Source of the DNA: Nymphaea colorata | Lineage: Eukaryota > Streptophyta > Magnoliopsida > Nymphaeales > Nymphaeaceae | Length of the DNA: 64,000 nt | Direction: 5' to 3' | NCBI RefSeq assembly: GCF_008831285.2 | Contig: NC_045142.1 | Coordinates: 24,177,300-24,241,299 of the forward strand | Part shown: in pieces, positions 16,908 through 60,905 of the stretch | Position numbering within the stretch: the stretch's first letter is position 1 | Layout of the letters: each line of letters begins with the position of its first letter | The notes under the pieces: model-generated | Told to the model about the DNA's origin: nothing | Seen by the model: only the letters and a program-made list of their open reading frames with translations | Database searches by the model: none | Made by a program: the position numbers and the translations under genes

Positions 16908-17190
16908 TGTAGAAACATGCAACACACGAAAGAAGAAGAGAGGAACACACGATATACGTGGAAAAACCTCAGAAAGAGGAAAAAACCACGGGAAGCTCTG
17001 ACCTAGGTGCACATCGCAACCCTAGGAGAGAGAAAATTATATTCACTTAATCACACAATTACACTTAAGTGAAGATTATATAGGAGGGAGAGAAGAATGC
17101 CGCCTAGGGTACCGAGCCGGCCTCGGTACCCGTGCCCCATGGGACCGGGTCCAGAAATGGACCCGGTTCCCCATTACATCTATTTTAACA
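16908..17190 (-). repeat. copia 3' LTR (left in window)
   Basis: 283 bp, TGTAGA...TAACA as written on the plus strand. It holds short GC-rich inverted motifs (GGTACCGAGCCGGCCTCGGTACC-like, near 17108-17130). The polypurine tract abuts it at 17191. Confidence 0.95.
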
Positions 17191-18417
17191 CTCCCCCTCA
17201 AGCTTGGCATACATGTCAAACATGCCAAGCTTGCTAACATTTTTCTCAAATTGAGATGTACATAAAGACTTAGTTAAAACATCAGCAACTTGATCTTCAG
17301 ACTTCATGTAGGGCAGGATCAACTCCTTAGAATCTATGTGTTCCCGTATGAAATGGCGATCGATCTCCACATGTTTGGTTCTGTCGTGCAAGACTGGATT
17401 GTTTGCCAAGTTAATAGCCGACTTGTTGTCACAATACATCCTCATCTTCTCTTCCATTTTCACCCCAATATCTGCTAACAGAATTTTGAGCCATAACATT
17501 TCTGTAACCCCCATGGCAACCGCCCTGTATTCAGCTTCAGCACTGGACCTGGAACAAACTTCTTGTCTTTTACTTCTCCATACCACCAGGTTACCTCCAA
17601 GAAAGATGCAGTATCCTGTGGTAGACCTTCTAGTATCTGTGCAACCTGCCCAGTCGGCGTCAGAGTATCCTTCAATACTGAGTTGACTTTGTCGAGTATA
17701 GAGCAGTCCTTTCCCTGGGTCATTCTTTAAGTATCCCAATACTCTTTCAGCACTTTTCCAATGACAATCAGTAGGGGCATGCATAAACTGACTTAACACA
17801 CCCACAGCATACGTAATATCCGGGCGAGTAAGGGTGAGATAAATGAGTTTACCAACCAGCCGCTGATACCTCCCTTTTCCTTCATCATCCAAGATCGTCC
17901 CAGTTTTGATACTTATCCTTGTGCCAGACTCCATTGGAGTAAGAAAGGGCCTGCATCCCAATTTACCTGTCTCTTTTAGAAGGTCCAAAGTGTATTTCCT
18001 TTGGCTCATAACAAGACCAGTCTCAGATCTAGCAATCTCAATTCCCAAAAAATACCTCAGTTTACCCAAATCTTTGAGGTCAAATTCAGCAGCTAACGTT
18101 TCTTTCATCTTCCTTTTTTCTTCTTCGTCATCACCTGTGACAATCATATCATCAACATATACTAGTAGGAGGCTCACCAGACCATTTCTCTGCTTGATGA
18201 AGAGGGTGTGATCACCATTTCCCTGTTTATATCCATTAGTCTTCATCACAACCCTTAGTCTTTCAAACCACGCTCTAGGGGACTGCTTGAGGCCATACAA
18301 TGCTTTCTTGAGATAACAACACTTTCCTTTCTGCGCATATCCAGGCGGCATGCTCATATAGACTTCTTCCTCAAGGTGCCCATTCAAGAAGGCGTTCTTG
18401 ACATCAAGTTGGTCCAT
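17185..18417 (-). CDS. copia RT C-terminal part and RNase H
   Basis: 410 codons: reverse transcriptase from DVKNAFLNGHLEEEVYM through the YVDD active site (LLLVYVDDMIVTG), then RNase H (SDADWAGCTDTRRSTTGYC, RSSAEAEYRAVA, YCDNKSAINLANNP, RTKHVEIDRHFIRE). It is in the same frame as the 991-codon frame upstream, separated by 32 codons and one TAG. It is therefore the tail of a single polyprotein, not a separate gene. Its stop lies a few bases inside the 3' LTR. Confidence 0.93.
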   Translation of the reverse strand: MDQLDVKNAFLNGHLEEEVYMSMPPGYAQKGKCCYLKKALYGLKQSPRAWFERLRVVMKTNGYKQGNGDHTLFIKQRNGLVSLLLVYVDDMIVTGDDEEEKRKMKETLAAEFDLKDLGKLRYFLGIEIARSETGLVMSQRKYTLDLLKETGKLGCRPFLTPMESGTRISIKTGTILDDEGKGRYQRLVGKLIYLTLTRPDITYAVGVLSQFMHAPTDCHWKSAERVLGYLKNDPGKGLLYTRQSQLSIEGYSDADWAGCTDTRRSTTGYCIFLGGNLVVWRSKRQEVCSRSSAEAEYRAVAMGVTEMLWLKILLADIGVKMEEKMRMYCDNKSAINLANNPVLHDRTKHVEIDRHFIREHIDSKELILPYMKSEDQVADVLTKSLCTSQFEKNVSKLGMFDMYAKLEGEC

Positions 18418-18513
18418 GCTCCACTTCTTTTGTACTGCCAGAGCTAAGATGACCCTTACTGTCTTTAGTTTAGCAACGGGAGCGAACGTTTCAAGATAGT
18501 CAATCCCATATTT

Positions 18514-21489
18514 CTAGCTAAACCCCTTTGCAACAAGACGAGCTTTATAGTGTTCTACAGTGCCATCAGGTTTGTACTTCACAGTAAACACCCACTTGGA
18601 ACCAACTAAGTGAGTTCCATTAGGAATATCAACAACCTCCCACGTATTGTTCTTTGCCAGGGCGTCCATCTCCTCTGTCATGGCCTGTAGCCACTTGGGA
18701 TCCTCCCTGGCATCCTCCACTGACCTGGGAATAACAGCCCTAGATAAAGAGGTAATAAAGCACTTGTAGTCTTTACTGAGTTTAGCATACGAGACAAATC
18801 TCTGAATAGGGTGAGAAGTACATGACCTGGTGCCTTTGCGTAGGGCTATGGGAAGATCTTCATTCATTGGACTTGGATCATCCGGGGAGCTCACAAGATC
18901 GGGATTGGTAACATCAACAACCTCCATCACATCATTCTTCTTCCTGGTGTATACCTGACCAAACAAATGATCACGGGACTGTTCTTCCACAGGGCCCCCT
19001 TCCATCTGACTGTCTCTGTCCTCACTGACTGTGTCATCCACACTCACACTCGGAGAACTAGCCGTGTAATCCAAGAAATCTGTGAACTGAATCAACTGAT
19101 GCGAAGAATACTCGTCCACTCTCTCACCTAAACACTCCCCCTGAAGAGGATTCGCAGGAAAGTAGGCCTCGTGTTCATGAAAGGTAACATCCCTGGAGAC
19201 ATAGACTCTAGAAGTGCTAGGGTCAACACACTTGTATCCCTTCTGAGTGGAGGAATACCCCAAAAAGACAGCTTTGATGGACCGAGGATCAAGTTTCTTG
19301 AGAGTGGGACTATGATCATGGACAAAGCAAACACACCCAAACACCCGAGGGGTCAAAGGCCAGGGACTCTGATTAGGCCACAAAACAGAATAAGGGGAAT
19401 GACCATTCAACACACGAGTAGGCATACGATTAATGAGATGAGCACTAGTGAGAAGTGCATCACCCCAATACCGCTTAGGGACATGACGTTGAAACATAAG
19501 GGCTCGGGTGACATTTAACAAATGACGGTTCTTCCTTTCAGCCACGCCATTCTGAGGAGGTGTGTGGCTACAGGATGTTTCATGTATAATACCTTTGCTT
19601 CGCAAGAAGTCATCAAGGGATAAGGAGGCATACTCTCGAGCATTGTCAGTACGAAGGGTCTGAACAGGGGTTTGGAATTGAGTTTCAACAAATGCAACGA
19701 AGTTTTTGACAATGCCGGGAACCTCACTACGTTCTTTCAACAAGTACACGAACGTACAACGAGAGTAGTCATCGATAAGAGTCACGAAATAACGAAAACC
19801 ACGACCGGTGGGCACTCCCGAAGGACCCCAAACATCAGAGTGAACCAAAGCAAAAGGACGGCTGGTTTTATTGAACGAAATAGGGTACGAGGCCCTAACA
19901 TGCTTAGACAACTGACACACTTCACAGGCGAAGGTGTCCAAAGAAACAGACCGAAACATCTTAGGAAACAATTGTTTAATCAACTGAAAAGGAAGATGAC
20001 CAAGTCTCTCGTGCCAACGCATAATAGCGGATCTGTCCTCCACGTCAGATAACTGTCCACTGGTGGCTGAAATCAAAGCAGAGGCAACCTGTACTGGCAT
20101 TCTGTAGAGACCATCAATAGCCGAACCAATCCCAATCTTCTGCCCCGTCCCCAAGTCCTGCAGTAAACAACGATCAGCAGAGAATATTAGATTACAGTTT
20201 AGCTCTTTGGTAATACTGCTGACAGATAACAAATTCACGGGAATATTAGGAACATGCAGGGCATTATGAAGACAATATTTGTTCAGTAATGAGAAACTCC
20301 CTTTTCCAGCCACAGAAATAGAAGAACCATCAGCCATAGAAACACGCTGCTGCCCAGAAGTCAACTTGTATTCTTGAAACATCTTAGGGTCCCCGGTCAT
20401 ATGATGAGTAGCCCCACTGTCAACAATCCAATCACCAGGAGAGGAATTACCTTGATCACTTGTAGCAACAAGAGCCTGAGCTAATTTAGCTCCATCAGAC
20501 GTAGATGTGTCCTCTAACGTAGTAGAAAGGCGACTGATGTAAGCTTGTAGTTCCTTGATTTGATCAGGGGAAAGCCTCGATTTTTCACCACTTGAAGAAC
20601 CACTCTGAGTTGAGTCCTGCACAAGAGGACCTCGCCGACTAGACGGAGGGCGACCACGAACAAGTCTCTTCTCAGGGTGAAGATCCCAACAAAAGTCAAC
20701 AGAATGTCCTGATTTGTGACAATGTGTACATCGCCTAACAGGGCGTGGTCCAGACACAGAAGAACGGCTAACAAAGGCCGAGGGACCAGTCCCGTGACTG
20801 GGGTCAATTTGCATCACTTGACGCCTTTGTTCCTCTGATTCCACTCTGGCATAAACATCTTCTATTCCAGGAATCTCATCACAGTTGAGAATTTGACTCC
20901 GAATGGATTCAAACTCATCACGCAAGCCTCCAAGGAAGAGGAACGTCCGGTCCATCCATTCCTTTTCCCAGTACCGAGCATGATCAGAACCACAGTCCCA
21001 GTTATCATTCACATGATAATCAAGTTCCTCCCACTTAGTTTTCAGGGCTGCATAGAAGGAGGCAACAGACAGGTCACCCTGTTTCAGAGAATAAATACTG
21101 CGTTTAATCTGATACGTACGCAGAACCCTTTTCTTGCGACCATACATCCTTGCAAGCACAGTCCACATATCAAACGAAGTCGGCTTTCGCAGAATAAGAG
21201 GCTGAATATCAGCAGACACAGAGCTGATGATCCATACCTTAACCTGACTGTCTTCCAACACCCACGTCGCCCATTGAGGATCAGTTTTGCTGGGCGCCGG
21301 TTTGTCGCCTGTGATATTGGAAAGACGACCACGGCTCGTTATCCCAATCTCGAGAGTAGCAGACCAAGAAAGATAATTGTCTTTAGTCAGACGAATGGGT
21401 GTGACCTGAACCGGCAAGATCTCGCTCTTGGGAACGCTGCCCGCGTCAAAGGCCATATCACTTTTAGGTGCAAGCTCTTCTGCCATCAC
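18514..21489 (-). CDS. copia gag-protease-integrase-RT(N) polyprotein, ends at premature stop
   Basis: 991 codons from ATG 21489. Gag has the CCHC knuckle CTHCHKSGHSVDFC (residues about 255-270). Protease has DWIVDSGATHHMTG. Integrase has the HHCC zinc site (WHERLGH...CEVCQLSKH), the core (HSDVWGP, LIDDYSR, RTDNAREY) and PPQNGVAERKNR. RT begins at WLQAMTEEMDALAKNNTWE and stops after KARLVAKGFS at a TAG, where related elements have a glutamine codon (a C-to-T change on the coding strand is inferred). All other catalytic residues are present. Confidence 0.95.
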   Translation of the reverse strand: MMAEELAPKSDMAFDAGSVPKSEILPVQVTPIRLTKDNYLSWSATLEIGITSRGRLSNITGDKPAPSKTDPQWATWVLEDSQVKVWIISSVSADIQPLILRKPTSFDMWTVLARMYGRKKRVLRTYQIKRSIYSLKQGDLSVASFYAALKTKWEELDYHVNDNWDCGSDHARYWEKEWMDRTFLFLGGLRDEFESIRSQILNCDEIPGIEDVYARVESEEQRRQVMQIDPSHGTGPSAFVSRSSVSGPRPVRRCTHCHKSGHSVDFCWDLHPEKRLVRGRPPSSRRGPLVQDSTQSGSSSGEKSRLSPDQIKELQAYISRLSTTLEDTSTSDGAKLAQALVATSDQGNSSPGDWIVDSGATHHMTGDPKMFQEYKLTSGQQRVSMADGSSISVAGKGSFSLLNKYCLHNALHVPNIPVNLLSVSSITKELNCNLIFSADRCLLQDLGTGQKIGIGSAIDGLYRMPVQVASALISATSGQLSDVEDRSAIMRWHERLGHLPFQLIKQLFPKMFRSVSLDTFACEVCQLSKHVRASYPISFNKTSRPFALVHSDVWGPSGVPTGRGFRYFVTLIDDYSRCTFVYLLKERSEVPGIVKNFVAFVETQFQTPVQTLRTDNAREYASLSLDDFLRSKGIIHETSCSHTPPQNGVAERKNRHLLNVTRALMFQRHVPKRYWGDALLTSAHLINRMPTRVLNGHSPYSVLWPNQSPWPLTPRVFGCVCFVHDHSPTLKKLDPRSIKAVFLGYSSTQKGYKCVDPSTSRVYVSRDVTFHEHEAYFPANPLQGECLGERVDEYSSHQLIQFTDFLDYTASSPSVSVDDTVSEDRDSQMEGGPVEEQSRDHLFGQVYTRKKNDVMEVVDVTNPDLVSSPDDPSPMNEDLPIALRKGTRSCTSHPIQRFVSYAKLSKDYKCFITSLSRAVIPRSVEDAREDPKWLQAMTEEMDALAKNNTWEVVDIPNGTHLVGSKWVFTVKYKPDGTVEHYKARLVAKGFS

Positions 21490-21871
21490 AAGTAGTCAAG
21501 TCAGACACAACCCCAGGCAGCAACAAAACAGCACGGCGGCGGCTGAAACACCAGCACCACACGGAACCTTAGGTGTCGGCGACGGTGCTGGATCGCCCGA
21601 CGGCGGCGACGCAGAGGCGTGACGGCGCTGGACACCCACGGCAGCGGAAAGATGGGATGGCGCTGGATTGACCGACGGCGGAAAAGGAGACACCCACGGC
21701 AGCGGAAGTCACAAGCGGCAACAGGCGGCGGCGCTGGATCGTCTGACGGCGGCGGCGCAGAAGATCCCAATGGTGGCGGCGCGGGAAACCCTAACGGCAC
21801 AGGCGGCTGCGGTGCAAGGGCGACTACGAAAATACGAGACGAAGCCGAACGATCTCACGGCTCTGATACCA

Positions 21872-33825: not shown

Positions 33826-34215
33826 GGGGGCGTTTGATGGCATTGAATTTTGATTATAGAATTAAAATTCTGGAAACAAAATTTCAGTTCAACTAGGATT
33901 AGAATGAAAATTCTAGCTATCATTTTCATTTGTGTTTGATAGTTTGGAATTTTGACTATAGAATTGAAGACGACTTATTTGACAAAACGTAAATTAAGTT
34001 TGTAAACTTGATGAACTAAAACCGTCATGACATGTGCTTAGATGAAAAAATTCTAAAATTCTTGAATCGTAATTTCACCCCTTAAGGTAGAATCATAATT
34101 CTAGAATTTTGATTCAAGAATGGGCCTATAATTCCAAAATTAAAATTCTTTGTTTGGCAACACAATTCCCATTTAATCAAAAATGAAAATTTTAATTCTA
34201 GAGTTCCACAATTCC
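33826..34215. mobile_element. Tourist-like element, one clear terminus
   Basis: GGGGGCGTTTGATGGCATTG follows TTA (33823-33825), the Harbinger/Tourist target motif. The interior is AT-rich, with repeated AATTCTAGAATTTTGATT words on both strands. The right terminus is not identifiable; 34215 is an estimate. Confidence 0.4.
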
Positions 34216-36880
34216 TACCTCATCATACACCTCCTTAATGGCTCCAATATCTTCTTGCAGGCCAGTAGGCCCCAACATTCCATTTGGCCAACAAAAGTGA
34301 ACCTGTCATGAAAGATTTTCTTAAATTCTTTTCTTGTCTCTTTTCCATTAAAGGCTCTGTACAAATTGACATTGCCCTAAACATAGTGATTCTAATACAG
34401 TTTCCTAAAGGAAGAGTGGTTCATTTTATTGCCCCTATGTCCTTCATCCTCAGAATTTACAGAGCTTGCTTCGTGACCTATTAACAATAAGTAGACCACA
34501 TTGCCACCCAGTGTGCTACAATTGCTTGATAGCATATTTTATAACATATTTGGTTTCCTGAAGAGAGACAAGATTATGACAGCAACTGTGCCTCTGGCAC
34601 TTATCTAATATCACCCTGAAAATCAATAGCACTCCCTCATTTTAATCTCAATAGAGCCTTTTTCAACTTAAATTAAAGTAGAAGAGTTCCATTTTTTTCA
34701 TAACCACTTCTGCTTTGCACTTCAAAACAATAAGCAAGGAAAAATAAATAAATAAAAAATCTGGGGCACTTATAGAAGGAAAAATTGAAGCCCCACAGGC
34801 GACCAATGATAAGAGTGACTAAGCCAAGGGTTATTTGTAGTGATATTTTGACTATGTTCAGACCTCCACCTCCGAGTACAAATTCATGATTTTTATAATG
34901 TAATATGGATTGCCTCAAGAACCATAGCATAGCTGGTCGGCCTTGCAAGCCAAAAGTCTGATCTCCAACTGGATGATTGCTAGTCTCCTGCATTGCTAAG
35001 GAATGTACTACTGTCTTCTACCCAAGTTACAAGGCAGCCCTAGATCATTGATATAGAAAATGAGTTGGGGGCACATATAAACCTTTTTCCTTGCATGAAC
35101 ATTTTCCATCAGAATGATCATATGCACAGGAAACTTCAAGCCTCCGCATTCAACTGTGTATATGTGCCTTATGTATAAATAAGTTTGCATCTAATGGATG
35201 CAATTCGACTTCAACTCAGGCATGAGGCAGGTGAGGTCTCACACGGAGCCCATTCTTTGAAACCTTAATTCGGCTTTGAACATCTGGTGAACTTAGGTCT
35301 AGTTGCATAGCTCCAGAGAGCCAGGTTACTGTCTCATAGTCAATTGAAAATTTTTTAATAATATTTTAGGGAATCCTGAGAAAAAATTTCTAGCTCCACC
35401 ACTGCTTTCAACTCTAACTCTAAGATGATTTTTGGTTTTCGAGAAGTTGGATATGGGCATCTTTCAAATTTGTGATCTTCTGTGAACTGGGTTTGATTTC
35501 ACATCCAACCACTGATATCTTTCAAAATCTAGTCTGCAAGCCCTGCCCTTCGGCTTTTGAAAGGTGGGAGGGTTCCTTCTCTCTTCTTCCCAATTTTGCG
35601 TGGATTTTGACCCTTTGTGCGCTATACACAGATGAATGTCAACTTTTTGGGACATAGGTGCAGCAGCCCTTAGCACTGCTAATATATGGTCAAAGCCATC
35701 TTTGATAGCGCCAATGCACCAAGTTATTTTCTTTTCTGATGTTAGCTTCATTCAAATTTATCCAGGATCAATCTCAACTTTTCGCATAACTTTTTTCTGA
35801 AACCTTTTAATATTATTTTGACTCATTCTATTATTATCTTCTTCAACTTTTCAATTACGACTTCTTTATTATGTGTTGTTAATAACTTCAAAATCTTATT
35901 TCACCCAAGGTCCTTGAAAATGTTCCTTACGTATATGCATCCACACCCATGTAAATAAACAAGTAATCAAAGTTTTATCCACTGTGTGAATGTTTGCAGC
36001 TATTATATTCCCATATTAGCCTCCGCACTTAATTTTTCAAAAGATTTTGACGGTCATCCATTTCAATCTTCATACTCATGCTGTCCCCCATGATTGCACA
36101 TGTATCTGCTCGACAAAGTTGAGAAAATGTGCCCAAACAGAAGGTCATCTTGGAATTACATGCCACACCCACTCTAGAACATAGCTAATATTTGATCTCA
36201 CAAATCCACGTCATGCAGATATAGCATGCATATAACTTGAAGCAAATATGAAACTGACAAAGATCCTACACAAGGCCTTCATGGAGAATATTAAACCCAT
36301 ATTAGACACTTGTCTGCCCTTTCATGATCATGCCATTTATTTTGAAGTCAATTAAAAATTAGTTGGTCTCAGAATTCTTAATATGTAAACTGTGATTATC
36401 TGTATTCAGTTGCAAAATAATAATTTGGAGCTCAAACACTATATTATATGCAGTATTCAAATGTGGTTCTTGTGTCTTACGTTTGACAAACATCCACTAA
36501 TGGTGTGGGTTATAGCTTGCACCAATTTCCTTACCCATGGATAATTTTTAACCTGCTAAATGCTAAAATACAATGTTGCCAAAAGCATTGTCAATATGAT
36601 ATGCATTATCTACTTATCTGTCTAAATTCAGGGTAAGAAAATGGATGAGTGACTTTTAGACTTATCCTTTTCTTTTTATGGATAAGACAATGATGTTATC
36701 ATAAGCACTCAAGAAATTTCAACGTGCAGTTACAAGAACTGAAACAGATATACAGTAGCTGCAAAGTGAAGAACATTCTAACAAAACTATTTATCTTTGT
36801 ATTAGAAATTTAGAACAGAAACTGCAATGCAAAAAGCGTTGCTCAATCAATAAACTTTACAGTTTAAGGAACATATCTAC
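34216..36880. other. intergenic or downstream intron of the nexin locus, no supported exon
   Basis: If the sorting-nexin gene were complete, exons for the nexin C-terminal domain should lie here or further left on the minus strand. I looked for the conserved domain words on the minus strand and did not find them. Open frames are short and unlike known proteins. Confidence 0.5.
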
Positions 36881-37490: not shown

Positions 37491-40400
37491 CAATGTTATC
37501 CGTATCAGCGTTTTCGATACGTTACACCTAATAAAGACGATACGCGTACGTATCGTACGCGTATCGCACGTATTGTGCGATACGGTGGGCGTATCGCACG
37601 ATACGTGCGATACACCCCCGTATCGCATGATACGGGAGTAAAATTAAAAAAGGGGCCGTCGGGCCCCTTTTTGCTTCTTATTTTGAAACTGACGCTCCTC
37701 TCTCTCTCTCTTCTTGTTTCTCAACGCTACCAGAGACATGGGAGGGAGAGATTTTCTCCATTGCATCAAGATTTGCCGGTGAAGAAGCTTCATTTCTCGT
37801 TGTGGGGAGTCTTGGGACGGTGGGAAGCTTGGAGAAAGAGGGTTTTTTGGTTTTTAACACCAAGAAGGTAAGAAATAACTCATTTTTGCCGTTGAATCGT
37901 TCATTTCTCTTATTTCCTACATTTATTTGTATGTTTTTACTTGTTTTGTGAAGATATAATGTCGGATCCTACATGGCAGTGGTGTACAAGGGTGAATCCC
38001 AAAGATAGATTAAAAGTTAAGTGCAATTATTGTAAACAAATCATATCAGGAGGGATTTCTCGCTTTAAACACCATATAGCTGGTACACATAGCGATGTGG
38101 TTGCTTGCAATGGCTCCCAAGAGATCCCATTGCCAACGTATGTAAAGCACCAGTGTCAGCAGCTTCTTGATGCAGTGAAAGCAAGTAGGATTGAAAAGGA
38201 CATGGAAGATGCGGAGGAAGGTTATGGGGACCCACATGAAGGGGAAGAAAGTGAAGGTGAAGATGTTCAACTTGAACAAGAAGATGTTGGTGTCAGTTTG
38301 GGAACAACTAAAGGGAAAGGCGTCATGCATGGAGGTGGTTCTTCTGCAACTGCAACCAGAAAAAGAAGAGGTGCAAGTATAAGTTCAGTTTCACGAGGAC
38401 GTGGCAGAAGTCAGGGTCGTATTGGTGGTGGTAGAGTACCTACTATGAAGTCGAGCAATATGTCTGGTTCGATCAAGAATTTTTTTCCCAATTATACTGC
38501 TGTTGGTGCTCAGTTTGAGATTTGTATAGCCATGCAATCAAAGGATATTATTGAAGCAGGAGATGAAACCATAGGAAGGTGGTTCTATGATGCATCAATT
38601 CCCTTCAATGCAGCAAACTCTTATCATTATCAGCCTATAGCAGATGCGATTGCTAGTGTAGGGCGAGGGTATAAAATGCCCTCTTTTCATAAATTGCGAG
38701 GTAAAATTCTCAACAATATAGTTAGATATGTGAACACATATTGTGATGAACTAAAATTGAGCTGGAAAGCTACATGATGCAGTGTAATGGCAGATGGGTG
38801 GACAGACATCAAGAACAGAACATTGGTAAACTTTCTTGTATATTGCCCTCTTGGTACTATGTTCTTAAAATCTGTTGATTTGTCTGATACTCCTAAGACT
38901 GCTGATATGTTGTTTGGGATTTTTGATAAAGTTATAGAAGATGTTGGGCCTGAAAATGTCGTATAATTTATCACTGATAATGCAGCAAATTATAAAGCTG
39001 TAGGTGAAATGTTAGCAGCACGATATGGGACATTTTATTGGAGTCCATGTGCTGCTCACTGTGTAAATCTTATGCTTCAGGATCTTGGTGAAAGAGATGA
39101 TATGAAGTTGACAGTTCATAGATGCCAAGAAATCACGAAGTTTATTTACAATCATGCTTATGTCTTGAATTTGATGAGAAAATTCACAAATGGGGCTGAA
39201 TTGATTCGACCTGCACAAACACGGTTTGCTACAAATGTTTTGACTGTGCAGGGTATAGTCAAGCAAAGATCTTCTCTCAGGCAGATGTTTTCAAGTGATG
39301 ATTGGCCTGCATATCCACATGCCTATAAAAGAAAGGCTACGACAGTTGTGGATACCATCTTCGATGCTGACTTTTGGGAATCATGTGTGCACTTATTGAA
39401 GATTTGTGTACCTCTAGTGAAAGTCCTCAGATTAGTTGATAGTGAAGATAGACCTTCTATTGGATATTTATACGAGTCTATGGATAGAGCCAAGGAGGCC
39501 ATTAGAGATAATATGAAGGGAAAAAAGAAGTTGTACATACCTATATGGAAGATCATAGATGAAAGGTGGTCTAGACAACTTCATCGCCCACTTCATGCAG
39601 TAGCCTACTACCTAAATCCTGCTATTAGATTTCTTCCCACTTTTAAGAAGGACAGAGAGGTCGAGTATGACATGTTGGATTGCATTGATGTATTAGTAAG
39701 TGATAGTAAAGAACAAGACGTTATCCATATGTCGATCAACAAATATGATACGGCTTTTGGTACCATGGCGAGAGACACAGTAGTTCGATGCAGGACAATT
39801 ATGCGTCCAAGTATTAGAAAAAGAGACTTTATACTTTTTGTTTTTTAGCTTTTATTATACCTTCTCATATATTTATTTCTGACAACATTTTTACTTTCCA
39901 TCTGTTATTAGATTTGTGGTGGGAAAGGTTTGGGCCTGATTGCCCAAAATTAAGGAAGCTTGTAATTAGAATCCTTAGTCAAATATGTAGTGCAACTTGA
40001 TGTGAAAGAAATTGGAGTGTATTTCAGCACATCCATAGTAAGAAGAGGAATAGGCTGGAACATAAAAGGTTGAATGACCTTGTTTACGTTTGCTATAATA
40101 TGAAGTTGAGACAAAGGTAAACATTTGTTTCGTTATACAAGAATATCAAATTCTAACATATATTTTAATCTCTTAACAATTTGTTAATTTTTTCTCTTGT
40201 TAGGCAACTAGAAACAACATCTACGAGGAAGCATCACAATCAATATGATCCTATCTTCATTGACCATTTTGATATATTAGATTCTTGGGTTGAAGAAGAA
40301 CCAGCTGCAATACTTGATGAGGACGATCTTGATTTTTTGAATGTTGAAGGAGCAGCAGAGATTGTTGAAGAAGGAGAGGCTGGGGGGAGCAATGGAATGT

Positions 40401-54398: not shown

Positions 54399-54863
54399 TA
54401 AGGGTGCGTTTGATGCACAAAGAAGAATTTAACGTGGTAAATTTATCACGGTAAATTTTTCTGAAAAAAAATTCAAGGTGAAATTTAACCTTCTTCCGAT
54501 TTGAGGTCATGTTTGATGCACAGGAAGAATTTAACCTGGTAAATTTAACTGTATTTGATGGATAAGGTAAAATGAATGAGAGACTTTTTAGGTGACGTTA
54601 ACTATGACAAAACCCAGAAATCATGGAATTCCAAGAGTGAATCCACTCAACCATATAGAACCTGGAAAATCAGATATAACACTACGAGGCCCTAAAAGAG
54701 ATCCATGACAGGAGAGCACACACAGAATGCATATTTGGATCTTAGCTTGGTTTATCAATTATAAACATATAACAGACCAGATTGAACTCAAATTGGAGAA
54801 CTATGGATCTTAGCTTAATTTATTAAATGTAAAGATAACGGAATCAATTCAAGCAAACCCTCC

Positions 54864-54873
54864 AGAAGATTCT
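54864..54873 (+). promoter_or_regulatory. heat-shock element, two units
   Basis: AGAAGATTCT is a perfect nGAAnnTTCn pair, about 130 bp upstream of the TATA box of the captured sHSP fragment. Confidence 0.65.
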
Positions 54874-54925
54874 TTTGCTGCGTCCAAACAATACGGAATG
54901 CTCTAAAAATCTCGAGAGGCAAGAA

Positions 54926-54940
54926 AGAAGCTTCGGGAAA
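54926..54940 (+). promoter_or_regulatory. heat-shock element, three units
   Basis: AGAAGCTTCGGGAAA fits nGAAnnTTCnnGAAn exactly, the minimal trimer bound by heat-shock factors, about 60 bp upstream of the TATA box at 54998. Confidence 0.75.
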
Positions 54941-54997
54941 TCACCGTCTCCCTCCATCGGGCACCTTCTAGTTCTCTCTCTAACCTCTCTGATTCCC

Positions 54998-55006
54998 TTA
55001 TAAATT
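54998..55006 (+). promoter_or_regulatory. TATA box of captured sHSP promoter
   Basis: TTATAAATT lies about 160 bp before ATG 55160 and downstream of both heat-shock elements. Spacing fits a sHSP promoter with a leader of roughly 130 bp. Confidence 0.6.
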
Positions 55007-55159
55007 GGGCCGATGCACTTGTGGTTCCCCCGTCAACAATCGCTCGATCAAACCCCAAGAGCAAGAAACAAACCGCGATCACGCTCTCGAATCTCCATTT
55101 GCAGACGCAGAAACCAGTTCCGCACCACCAAGAAGGGGAAAAGCAAAAGGTGTAGGAAA

Positions 55160-55408
55160 ATGGATGTGGTGATGGTGGAGCAGCCGCTGTTGTCGACGCT
55201 CAACCAGCTGATGAGTGTCCTGGAGGAGATGAAGAAGCTGCTGAATGCGCCCACTCGCAGCTACGTGCGTGACTCCAAGGCCATGGCCTCGACGCCTGCC
55301 GACGTCAAGGATTACCCTTCCTCCTACGTCTTCGTCCTCGACATGCCGGGGCTCAAATCCGGCGACATCAGGGTCCAGATCGAGGAGGACCGGCGATTGA
55401 AGCACTGA
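55160..55408 (+). pseudogene. class II cytosolic small heat-shock protein, N-terminal fragment
   Basis: 82 codons from ATG 55160. They include [50 protein letters not shown] and DIRVQIEED, the N-terminal arm and first strands of the alpha-crystallin domain typical of plant class II sHSPs (HSP17.6-CII type). After QIEED the reading enters unrelated sequence (RRLKH) and stops. About half the protein, including the rest of the crystallin domain, is missing. The open frame continues upstream in phase to 55013, but ATG 55160 matches the family start. It lies inside the Harbinger-like element, so it is a captured gene fragment, possibly still heat-inducible as RNA. Confidence 0.85.
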
Positions 55409-55667
55409 TGCCACGACGGACCGACGACGGTGAGTGCAGAGCGACGGCGGACCGGCGACAGTGAGAGCGGCCTCTGGTGCGACGGTGAGAAGGCGAGCTG
55501 CGGGGGGAGGGTGTCGAGCGGGTGAAATTCCACCCGCTCCTTTTTGCAGAAAACGGGGTGAATTTCACCCCGTTTGATGCATTTTTAGTCGGGCGGGTGA
55601 AATTTCACCTGCCCGTACCATTTTTTACATCTTTTCCACTTTCAACCGGGCAATCAAACGCCCCTAA

Positions 55668-57782: not shown

Positions 57783-59283
57783 TCATTTGTCAAACACTAG
57801 AAATTCATTAATCAAATAGTAAAATTTTCATTCTTATTGATTAATGAACTAAAATGAATGAATCTTGTTATATAATCACTCCAAATTCAATCGTATGACT
57901 ACTAATATTACTGAATACAAAAATTTAAACATTGGGTAGTTTGTAAGAGTCCACGTGCTATTTGGATCTAATGAAAGTTGTAATTGGTTGCTATTAATGT
58001 CAATTGCTGAGTTGAATGATCCTCCTTGCTAGAAATTAGTGTTCTAATCAAATTTTAAACTTTCTTTTATTTTTTAATGTTTACTTGGAGGAAATGGCCT
58101 TCAACATAAAACCCTTAGTCCCTTAGTTTGCATTTGATAACCTTGGATTTAAGATCCACGGTTGCACTAAAGGGAGGGTGGGGGAGGGAGGTCTTTTAAA
58201 TCCATGGAATTGAGATCATAAGGATCTCAGATCACCACGGATTTGAGAGCCGCGGTGAAACAAACATAACCTTAACAGGTGTTTGACAGTATTGGATCTG
58301 AAATCCAAGGTGATCTGAAATCATTTAGAATCTGATATCCATGTATTTAAGGTAGCACTCTCTATTCCTTTCCACAAAAAATCCAACCTCATGTATTATA
58401 TTTTAGCCATATACTAAGGATCTTAAATCCTCTTTTCCATATAGTGGAAAGATCTAGTGTCAGTTTACATTGTGGGATGCACATAAAGAGGATATTATGC
58501 CAGTATCAAATATAAGATCCGAGCTTATCAGACACAACATCAAGGTCATACACTTACAACTCTAAGGTTCTGAGTTTTTTTTTTTTGTCTTGCTTTGGAG
58601 TCTAGGTGAACCTTTGGTATATACTTCAACTCGAATGTCACATGTTCGCAGTCTTGAGGAATAATGCATTGGAACATGACAAGTGAGTGATTGTCACAAA
58701 AAATGCGTATAAAATGTGAAAAACAAGTCAGCCGTATAAAACACGTTTTTTTTAAATGCCAAAAAACAAAAAACAAGTATAATACCCATATTATACAGTT
58801 CCCCCCCCCCCCATTTTTTGCCGTTTTTTGTATTTTTTATAATTTTTAAGATTTATTAAATGTTATAAATTTTCTCATTTTATTCCCGAAATATACAACT
58901 TTGCTGTATTATATATGTCTTTTTCCTCGCCGTCTAATACCCATCTTAGGTGGCATCTCTCTGATCTGGCCACCATTTGGCTCCGCTCCCACCCCCAATC
59001 TTGGTGAAGATGGTTCCTTATTATATTATAGTCTTGCACATCCTACATCCACAGAATTTTTGTTAGAAACATCTGGTCTTCAATGGAAGTTCAATTTCAG
59101 CACTGCCTTTTGTTGATCTGTAGTCTTTGGTGGTTGTTCACGTGATACTTTACAAAATTTTTGAATTTGATTAGATAGATTAGTTGTCGGATTAATTAAT
59201 TACTCTTGAAAAACTTTTGTCATCTTCACATTGAGAGAGAGAGAGAGAGGAGGGGGTGGGGAAAGTAAAAAAAAAACCATGGG
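57783..59283 (+). repeat. right arm of a dispersed inverted repeat (partner 29092-30500)
   Basis: Matches the reverse complement of 29092-30500 from ATTCATTTGTCAAAC to the GA tract and CTTTCCCC-like end (59283). A central part (58440-58690) is specific to this arm. It includes an AT-rich TATAATAC segment and a C12 run at 58801-58812. Confidence 0.8.
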
Positions 59284-59294
59284 AAAAAAATCCA

Positions 59295-60905
59295 TGGTTA
59301 CTTCAAAGCACCGTGGCCAGGCTGATGCTTGACAAATAGTGCGACAATTTGTAGCAATATGACCATTATTTCCACAAGCAAAGCAAGATCCAACCTGATT
59401 TTTCGAAGAACAATCTTGAGTTTTATTGCGACCTCTTATATACTTAAAGCGATTGCCACCAAAATTTTGGTTTTTCATAGTAAAATTTGTTGATGGAGTT
59501 CCAATAGGGAGATTATCAACTTCATCCAATTGCGCCTCATGAATAAGCAACATAGCAAGCAAGTCTTTCATATTAATAGGATCAACTCTGGTGTTCAAAG
59601 CAGTTCTAAGATACCCATATTCTCCCGATGGTAAACCAGTCATGATGCATGTGATCAAATCATCATCATCTACTAGTTTGGATGTAAGAGCTAATTGGTG
59701 AGCAATACTTTTTGCTGCAGAAATATTTCGAAATAGTTTCGGTGCCTTTTCTTAAGTTTTGAAGTTGGTTTCTCAACTGTTTGATTCTAGCTCTTGAGTG
59801 GGCAACATACATACGTTTGAAGGTATTCCATAATTCATGAGAGGAAGAAATACCCACAACATGACTACAAACAAGATCAGTTAAAGATCAAAGAATCCAA
59901 CTTAATAAAAGCTGATCTAATCTGTATCATTCATCATACTTTGGATTACGACATTTTAAGTCATTGTTGTCATCAATCCATTCAGAGGGACATGGTTACT
60001 TCAAAGCACCGTGGCCAGGCTGATGCTTGACAAATAGTGCAACAATTTGCAGCAATATGACCATTATTTCCACAAGCAAAGCAAGATCCAACCTGATTTT
60101 TCGGAGAACAATCTTGAGTTTTTTTGCGACCTCTTATATGCTTAAAGCGATTGCCACCAAAATTTTGGTTTTTCATAGTAAAATTTGTTGATGGAGTTTC
60201 AATAGGGAGATTATCAACTTCATCCAATTGCGCCTCATGAATAAGCAACATAGCAAGCAAGTCTTCCATATTAATAGGATCAACTCTGGTGTTCAAAGCA
60301 GTTCTAAGATACCCATATTCTCCCGATGGTAAACCAGTCATGATGCATGTGATCAAATCATCATCATCTACTAGTTTGGATGTAAGAGCTAATTGGTGAG
60401 CAATACTTTTTGCTGCAGAAATATTTCGAAATAGTTTCAGTGCCTTTTCTTAAGTTCTGAAGTTGGTTTCTCAACTGTTTGATTCTAGCTCTTGAGTGGG
60501 CAGCATACATACGTTTGAAGGTATTCCATAATTCATGAGAGGAAGAAATTCCCACAACATGACTACGAACAAGATCAGTTAAAGATCAAAGAATCCAACT
60601 TAATAAAAGCTGATCTAATCTGTATCATTCATCATACTTTGGATTACGACATTTTAAGTCATTGTTGTCATCAATCCATTTAAAGGGACATGGTTGTTTA
60701 CCACCTATGAAACCCATGAGATTATAACTCTTAAAGAGAGGCGTAAACTGAGATTCCAAATCAAATAATTGTCCGATGCAAGCTTAATGGGAAGCAAATA
60801 TTGAAGATTTGTAGGCGCAGGAAGAACTGGAAAAATCTGACCTATAGTTGGAGATGTGTCTGGTGTAGCAGACTCTGATGCATGATTGGTATTGTTTTTA
60901 GCCAT
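59295..60905 (-). pseudogene. copia gag remnant with a 0.7 kb internal tandem duplication
   Basis: Minus strand. Gag starts MAKNNTNHASES at 60905 and continues (LLPIKLASDNYLIWNLSLR) with stops and frame changes. 60692-59994 and 59993-59295 are two direct copies with a 699 bp period, each with SSHELWNTFKRMY, ITCIMTGLPSGEYGYLRTAL and the CCHC knuckle CFACGNNGHIA(A/T)NC. After the second knuckle the sequence ends at the inverted-repeat arm. Protease, integrase and RT are absent. The gag type resembles Tto1/RE1-like copia elements. Confidence 0.85.

Follow-up and report, generated by a model that had tools for sequence, protein, structure and literature searches.

A PIF/Harbinger element of Nymphaea colorata that carries the promoter and the start of a class II sHSP gene

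Has a transposon in Nymphaea colorata taken up a heat-shock promoter together with the beginning of the gene that it served? The question is raised by a locus in the 64,000 nucleotides of contig NC_045142.1 analysed here (the window), for which the original prediction, made from the letters alone, was that a Harbinger-like element had captured the promoter and the first codons of a class II sHSP gene. We are highly confident that a PIF/Harbinger element did capture this promoter and gene start, a confidence which applies to the capture and not to heat induction. The coordinates of the features are collected in Table 1.

Table 1. Features of the element and of its insertion site, in positions of the window.
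Feature	Position	Strand	Basis or remark
LINE relic, zf-RVT part, left of insertion, resuming past right TAA	54238..54401	-	
Target site duplication, left	54399..54401	.	TAA; single TAA in paralogous empty site
Whole element, non-autonomous PIF/Harbinger (Pack-type), 1,263 bp	54402..55664	+	termini, empty site, complete C3 copy
Left arm: terminal inverted repeat and subterminal motifs, common to family	54402..54590	+	
Stretch between left arm and cargo	54614..54725	+	in 6/6 cargo-bearing copies
Captured cargo: sHSP promoter, leader, first 76 codons, 663 bp	54726..55388	+	homology to L036
Heat-shock element AGAAGATTCT (HSE1)	54864..54873	+	identical in donor
Three-unit heat-shock element AGAAGCTTCGGGAAA (HSE2)	54926..54940	+	identical in donor
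TATA box	54998..55005 (TATAAA 54999)	+	identical in donor
Truncated class II sHSP frame, 82 codons and stop	55160..55408	+	76 codons gene-derived, last six from element arm
Right arm: palindromic subterminal motifs and terminal inverted repeat	55389..55664	+	
Target site duplication, right	55665..55667	.	TAA; single TAA in paralogous empty site

The inverted termini flanked by TAA are where they had been predicted to be. On the left TAA is followed by GGGTGCGTTTGATG from 54402, and on the right the terminus reads, as the reverse complement, GGGGCGTTTGATTG, its last base being 55664 and followed by TAA. PIF/Harbinger elements have short terminal inverted repeats (TIRs) that start with runs of G, and the G-run termini are present here as GGGTGCGTTTGAT and GGGGCGTTTGAT. 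The TIRs are merely about 13 bp long with one gap. In a scan for terminal pairs starting with GGG, spaced 200-5,000 bp apart and with identical TAA or TTA outside, this pair scored 11 and the runners-up in the window 7 and 6. When the window was simulated 100 times with a first-order Markov model, no pair scored 11, and chance TIRs were rejected on this ground. The arms are unlike, the left being AT-rich and the right GC-rich. All three exact sites of GTTTGATGCA in the window lie inside the element, and so do all three sites that differ from GGTGAAATTTCACC by no more than one base (left arm one, right arm two). When up to three mismatches are allowed for this palindromic subterminal motif there are eight sites in the window, of which the element holds four; 6 of 100 shuffles reach eight, so the total is not beyond chance. 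The element terminus had no match in viral contigs.

The insertion itself can be read from the flanks, whose minus strand encodes the zinc-binding region of a LINE reverse transcriptase. The left flank alone gives 37.8 bits for Pfam zf-RVT and the right flank alone no match; joined, they give 42.9 bits with one TAA between them and 43.5 with two, so that the Pfam scores do not settle the duplication, whereas a paralogue does. A genome search with the left flank returned two scored candidates, both matching, namely the window and a paralogous LINE relic on C4. In the paralogue both flanks are joined at one TAA and the whole 1,263 bp is absent, with identities of 93.6% over 1,101 columns on the left and 89.4% over 556 columns on the right. 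Given that C4 has one TAA where the window has TAA, element, TAA, the element is a single insertion that made a 3 bp duplication; the TAA that had been sought at an empty site was thus found, at a paralogous one. A rival reading makes the sHSP fragment a resident pseudogene and puts the inverted ends down to chance or to two MITEs that inserted independently. The short TIRs and the unlike arms would accord with this, but it is refuted by the empty site and by a second complete copy, on C3, in which arms and cargo are arranged as in the window. In relatives these arms also enclose other interiors (matching duplications were counted in 11 of 20 fetched), and we give the rival next to no credence.

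Two other classes of gene-carrying transposon were tried and rejected. Helitrons have neither TIRs nor a target duplication and show 5' TC and 3' CTRR, whereas this element has TIRs and a TAA duplication. Mutator-like elements (Pack-MULEs) make a target duplication of about 9 bp and the empty-site comparison gives 3 bp.

The arms belong to a family. A genome search with the left 459 bases gave 548 candidate places, of which 40 were scored and all 40 match: six over the full length (the window included, and with one match beginning at base 2) and the other 34 no further than base 212. Most family matches to the left arm stop between 54573 and 54613. With the right end, 40 of 312 candidates were scored, all 40 match and two do so over all 255 bases. 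Twenty of the 34 partial left-arm relatives were fetched for inspection. In 11 of them we counted a right inverted repeat whose three outer bases repeat those outside the left end; these members are 900 to 4,406 bp long, the duplications being TAA in seven, TTA in three and TCA in one. The other nine were counted as being without a right end with matching bases. One relative (L020) was placed among these nine, its weak TTA candidate having been dropped because the right-arm match sits about 1 kb beyond it.

The relative of 4,406 bp (L030) identifies the superfamily. It has the same arms (88.7% identity over 159 columns and 83.6% over 152) and a TTA duplication, and it contains three transposase pieces, the first matching DDE_Tnp_4 with 30.5 bits and Plant_tran with 26.3, the second DDE_Tnp_4 with 19.1 and the third no profile; the cut-off for DDE_Tnp_4 is 24.8 bits and one piece of the three exceeds its Pfam cut-off. 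Its transposase frames are in pieces in which introns and decay are not told apart. An ORF for a Myb/SANT protein is also present (Myb_DNA-bind_3, 52.8 bits). DDE transposase pieces and a Myb/SANT frame between these arms tie the family to PIF/Harbinger, and the predicted membership is therefore borne out by transposase-coding kin. The 3 bp duplications, TAA for the window copy and TTA for the C3 copy, are also those of PIF/Harbinger.

The interiors differ among family members and some contain other gene pieces. One relative (L016) encloses a PPR fragment (PPR, 27.7 bits, cut-off 25). The same interior recurs in a further family member (L025, C7:15.805 Mb) and, in two pieces, at C1:4.773-4.775 Mb, which is possibly the parent gene. 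One further interior is common to L014, L023 and L028; part of it we take to be GDSL-lipase-like, and the piece searched against Pfam had no match. L021 has TCA on both sides and an open frame of 343 codons including a possible secreted plant protein, with no Pfam match for the 169 aa part searched. The sHSP cargo has no match in any of the 20 relatives, nor in a sibling with another interior (L049).

Elsewhere in the window a candidate second Harbinger/Tourist-like element of 409 bp, its kind judged by eye from the ends, lies at 33826-34234 with TTA on both sides and the termini GGGGGCGTTTGATG and (inverted) GGAGGTGTATGATG. At 17185-21495 on the minus strand, two long open frames next to each other are presumably a Copia-like retroelement, to judge from their motifs. 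Two long frames at 37896-39848 on the plus strand, with a related one in L013, resemble a BED-finger hAT transposase. Two gag-like frames on the minus strand, 59200-59751 and 59982-60449, are near each other and very similar.

The source of the cargo was examined with 54860-55400, the limits originally predicted. All 14 scored candidates match, six being places with the element and eight lying on C11, where 6.99-7.03 Mb holds a tandem class II sHSP-like cluster (L036, L038-L041, L043, L045 and L046). With a filter of 120 residues, six of these eight show a class II sHSP frame that extends as far as the conserved C-terminus, and L040 and L041 show none. The nearest gene, L036, is 91% identical to the cargo with its frame intact, which supplies the intact sHSP donor that had been expected elsewhere in the genome. 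Over element positions 449-987 the K2P distances are 0.060 for L036 and the window, 0.052 for L036 and the C3 copy and 0.036 for the window and the C3 copy. These comparisons make L036 the probable donor, while the true donor could be a near-identical L036 paralogue that has been lost or is missing from the assembly. About 110 bp found in L036 is absent from the copies, so the captured allele presumably differed there or was trimmed later.

The limits of the cargo follow from two comparisons. Homology to L036 covers element positions 325-987, so that the sHSP piece is present as predicted but begins earlier than the 54860 given for it. In the sibling with another interior the right-arm match starts at position 988 (55389), the base right after the cargo. 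With the L036 homology ending at 55388, the alignments fix the 3' junction from both sides and to the base. The 5' side is less sharp owing to the stretch of about 112 bases at 54614-54725, which matches neither the family arms nor the donor as far as tested; the window copy is without about 41 bp just 5' of it. The arms have no match in any of the eight C11 cluster loci (about 3.2-3.5 kb examined at each), and thus the contrary case envisaged in the original prediction, an intact sHSP gene whose own flanks carry the same termini, was not encountered. A non-autonomous element enclosing part of a host gene, with the parent gene at a separate place, corresponds to a Pack-TYPE element.

The cargo retains the beginning of the protein, and the 74-odd sHSP codons predicted to be in the right order proved to be 76. 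The best PDB match of the open frame is the class II sHSP 5ds1 (E 1.6e-12, residues 44-78). Its Pfam HSP20 score of 17.8 bits is below the curated cut-off of 20.8, as expected for a fragment, and the match covers positions 2-31 of the 102 in the profile, most of the alpha-crystallin domain being absent. To look for the 3' half of the gene, the window was searched with an Arabidopsis class II sHSP sequence, the C-terminal part of which had no match up to E 10; the full sequence matches the element at E 4e-22 and has three further short matches at E 2 to 10. Any sHSP made from the element would be truncated and probably non-functional. A retrocopy was rejected, the upstream promoter being present.

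Cargo-bearing places number six with the window included, the others being in L009-L012, and thus the copy number is low. Two copies are complete, with duplications of TAA and TTA. The several loci sharing termini and cargo that capture had led one to expect therefore exist, as does amplification after capture of the Pack-TYPE kind, and the worry that no other locus might have these termini is removed by the C3 copy, which is complete with the same arms (1,331 bp, TTA on both sides). The window flanks have no match in 9 kb around it. The other four of the six are truncated or broken. Two on C8 form a head-to-tail pair of one orientation, their starts 1,161 bp apart, the first having lost its right end and stopping at about 55520 and the second stopping at about 55039. 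Of two on C7, one stops at about 55013, right past the TATA box, and the other at about 55257. On C8 (L011, G000:C8:5199000-5208900, and L031) another family member lies about 15 kb from the head-to-tail pair on the same strand.

A tree of four of the six copies and five of the eight cluster places, in which four of six inner forks are open, unites the copies with L036 at a support of 100/99 and the copies alone at 86/85. This gives moderate support to one capture. Multiple captures, or gene conversion in which the donor refreshed the copies, would deprive the similarity of the cargos of its value as a sign of one capture. Between the window and C3 copies 177 of 197 bases of the left arm are equal and 166 of 170 of the cargo promoter, as refreshing would have it, but at the right end the two agree just as closely as in the cargo, in 142 of 145 bases. 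The dN/dS ratios between copies are below 1 (0.09, 0.29 and 0.41 for three 82-codon pairs; 0.27, 0.56 and 0.88 for three 32-codon pairs), numbers too small to build on. Against repeated capture or conversion, the 3' junction is identical in the window copy, the C3 copy and the first on C8, which are the ones that extend to it, the same 110 bp or so of the donor is missing from the copies alike and the tree groups its four copies together. We consider it very unlikely that the copies arose in either of these ways.

Left arms diverge more than cargo between copies, and the right end does not in the single pair that has it. The divergence of the left arms may come from exchange between family members or from weaker constraint.

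The most likely course of events is capture at the level of DNA followed by movement in trans. A PIF/Harbinger element without transposase would have taken up 663 bp of the C11 class II sHSP gene, promoter included, during transposition or repair; a route through mRNA is unlikely because the captured DNA extends 5' of the TATA box. The composite would then have been moved as one unit by the transposase of coding relatives and would have spread to at least six places. In the model of PMC8903248 two neighbouring insertions move as one and take the intervening DNA with them, and local insertions in the same orientation are reported there to be commoner than expected. The C8 pair and the unlike arms fit this two-insertion model, by which the capture might conceivably have occurred. 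Heat might induce transcription from near 55030, and such a transcript would specify the truncated sHSP and run out through the right arm.

Whether the promoter does anything in its new places is a separate matter. The two heat-shock elements (HSEs) and the TATA box are present as predicted. The three-unit HSE occurs once in the 64 kb; shuffled sequences contain 1.34 on average and at least one in 70 of 100. About one is thus expected per 64 kb by chance and the motif alone proves nothing, though its place does support it, about 60 bases upstream of the TATA box and also in the donor gene. Two-unit sites are common, with 30 in the window, and the HSE count alone is not above chance. HSE1, HSE2 and the TATA box are unchanged in all six copies and in L036, and their exact strings are absent from the other seven C11 cluster loci in the sequence examined there. 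Over columns 54726-55013 of the six copies 27 of 288 columns vary and none of the 38 motif columns does (P 0.018), with P 0.016 over 54600-55013 and P 0.003 over 54861-55013. The motif borders were picked after seeing the data, and columns 54863 and 54997, directly beside two of the motifs, vary. The invariance is therefore suggestive only.

It is somewhat more probable than not that the promoter is a passive load, silenced by methylation as most transposon sequence is, and that the element is idle under heat, which is compatible with capture. Most captured pieces are silent, and the promoter of the window copy points into the LINE relic downstream of it. The invariant HSEs and TATA box, chosen post hoc as they were, are the evidence on the other side. 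They fit, and do not prove, a captured promoter that is active and retained for some benefit to host or element, with heat opening and transcribing the copies; we regard this as unlikely. If the promoter acts at all, a heat-induced read-out transcript from it would be the most likely mode.

The rice Pack-MULEs are TIR transposons that capture and amplify gene pieces, as here, but they are of Mutator type with duplications of about 9 bp and long TIRs. The original prediction that a Harbinger-type element had captured gene pieces stands, whereas its view that this is less known for such elements does not, since Pack-PIF elements carrying pieces of host genes have been described in maize and rice (PMC8903248). 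Like the present element these are PIF/Harbinger elements with mostly TTA/TAA duplications, internal pieces of host genes and amplification. Coding pieces are described for them and the word promoter is absent from the main text (PMC8903248), whereas here a whole heat-shock promoter, the leader and about half of the coding region were taken. The matches listed from the open-licence literature included neither an sHSP promoter carried by a Harbinger element, which is no proof of absence, nor a Pack-PIF that holds a complete heat-shock promoter and has its probable donor in the same genome. A gene-capturing Harbinger element is thus of a known kind, and what is unusual here is the whole heat-shock promoter.

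Helitrons of Caenorhabditis are also DNA transposons that disperse HSF-binding sites (PMC6927752). They belong to another superfamily and another kingdom. The function of their HSEs is backed by occupancy of HSF-1 and polymerase and by the expression of nearby genes (PMC6927752), whereas the sites described here are known from sequence, with the source gene identified.

The locus provides a well-documented capture within one genome, with a probable donor, a paralogous empty site, transposase-coding kin, a 3' junction placed to the base and several copies. If the captured promoter were active, this Harbinger family would be heat-responsive and would place new loci under heat-shock control, a plant counterpart of the Caenorhabditis Helitrons. 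Given that a complete inducible promoter is carried, the family offers a natural test of whether plant transposons hand heat-shock control to new loci.
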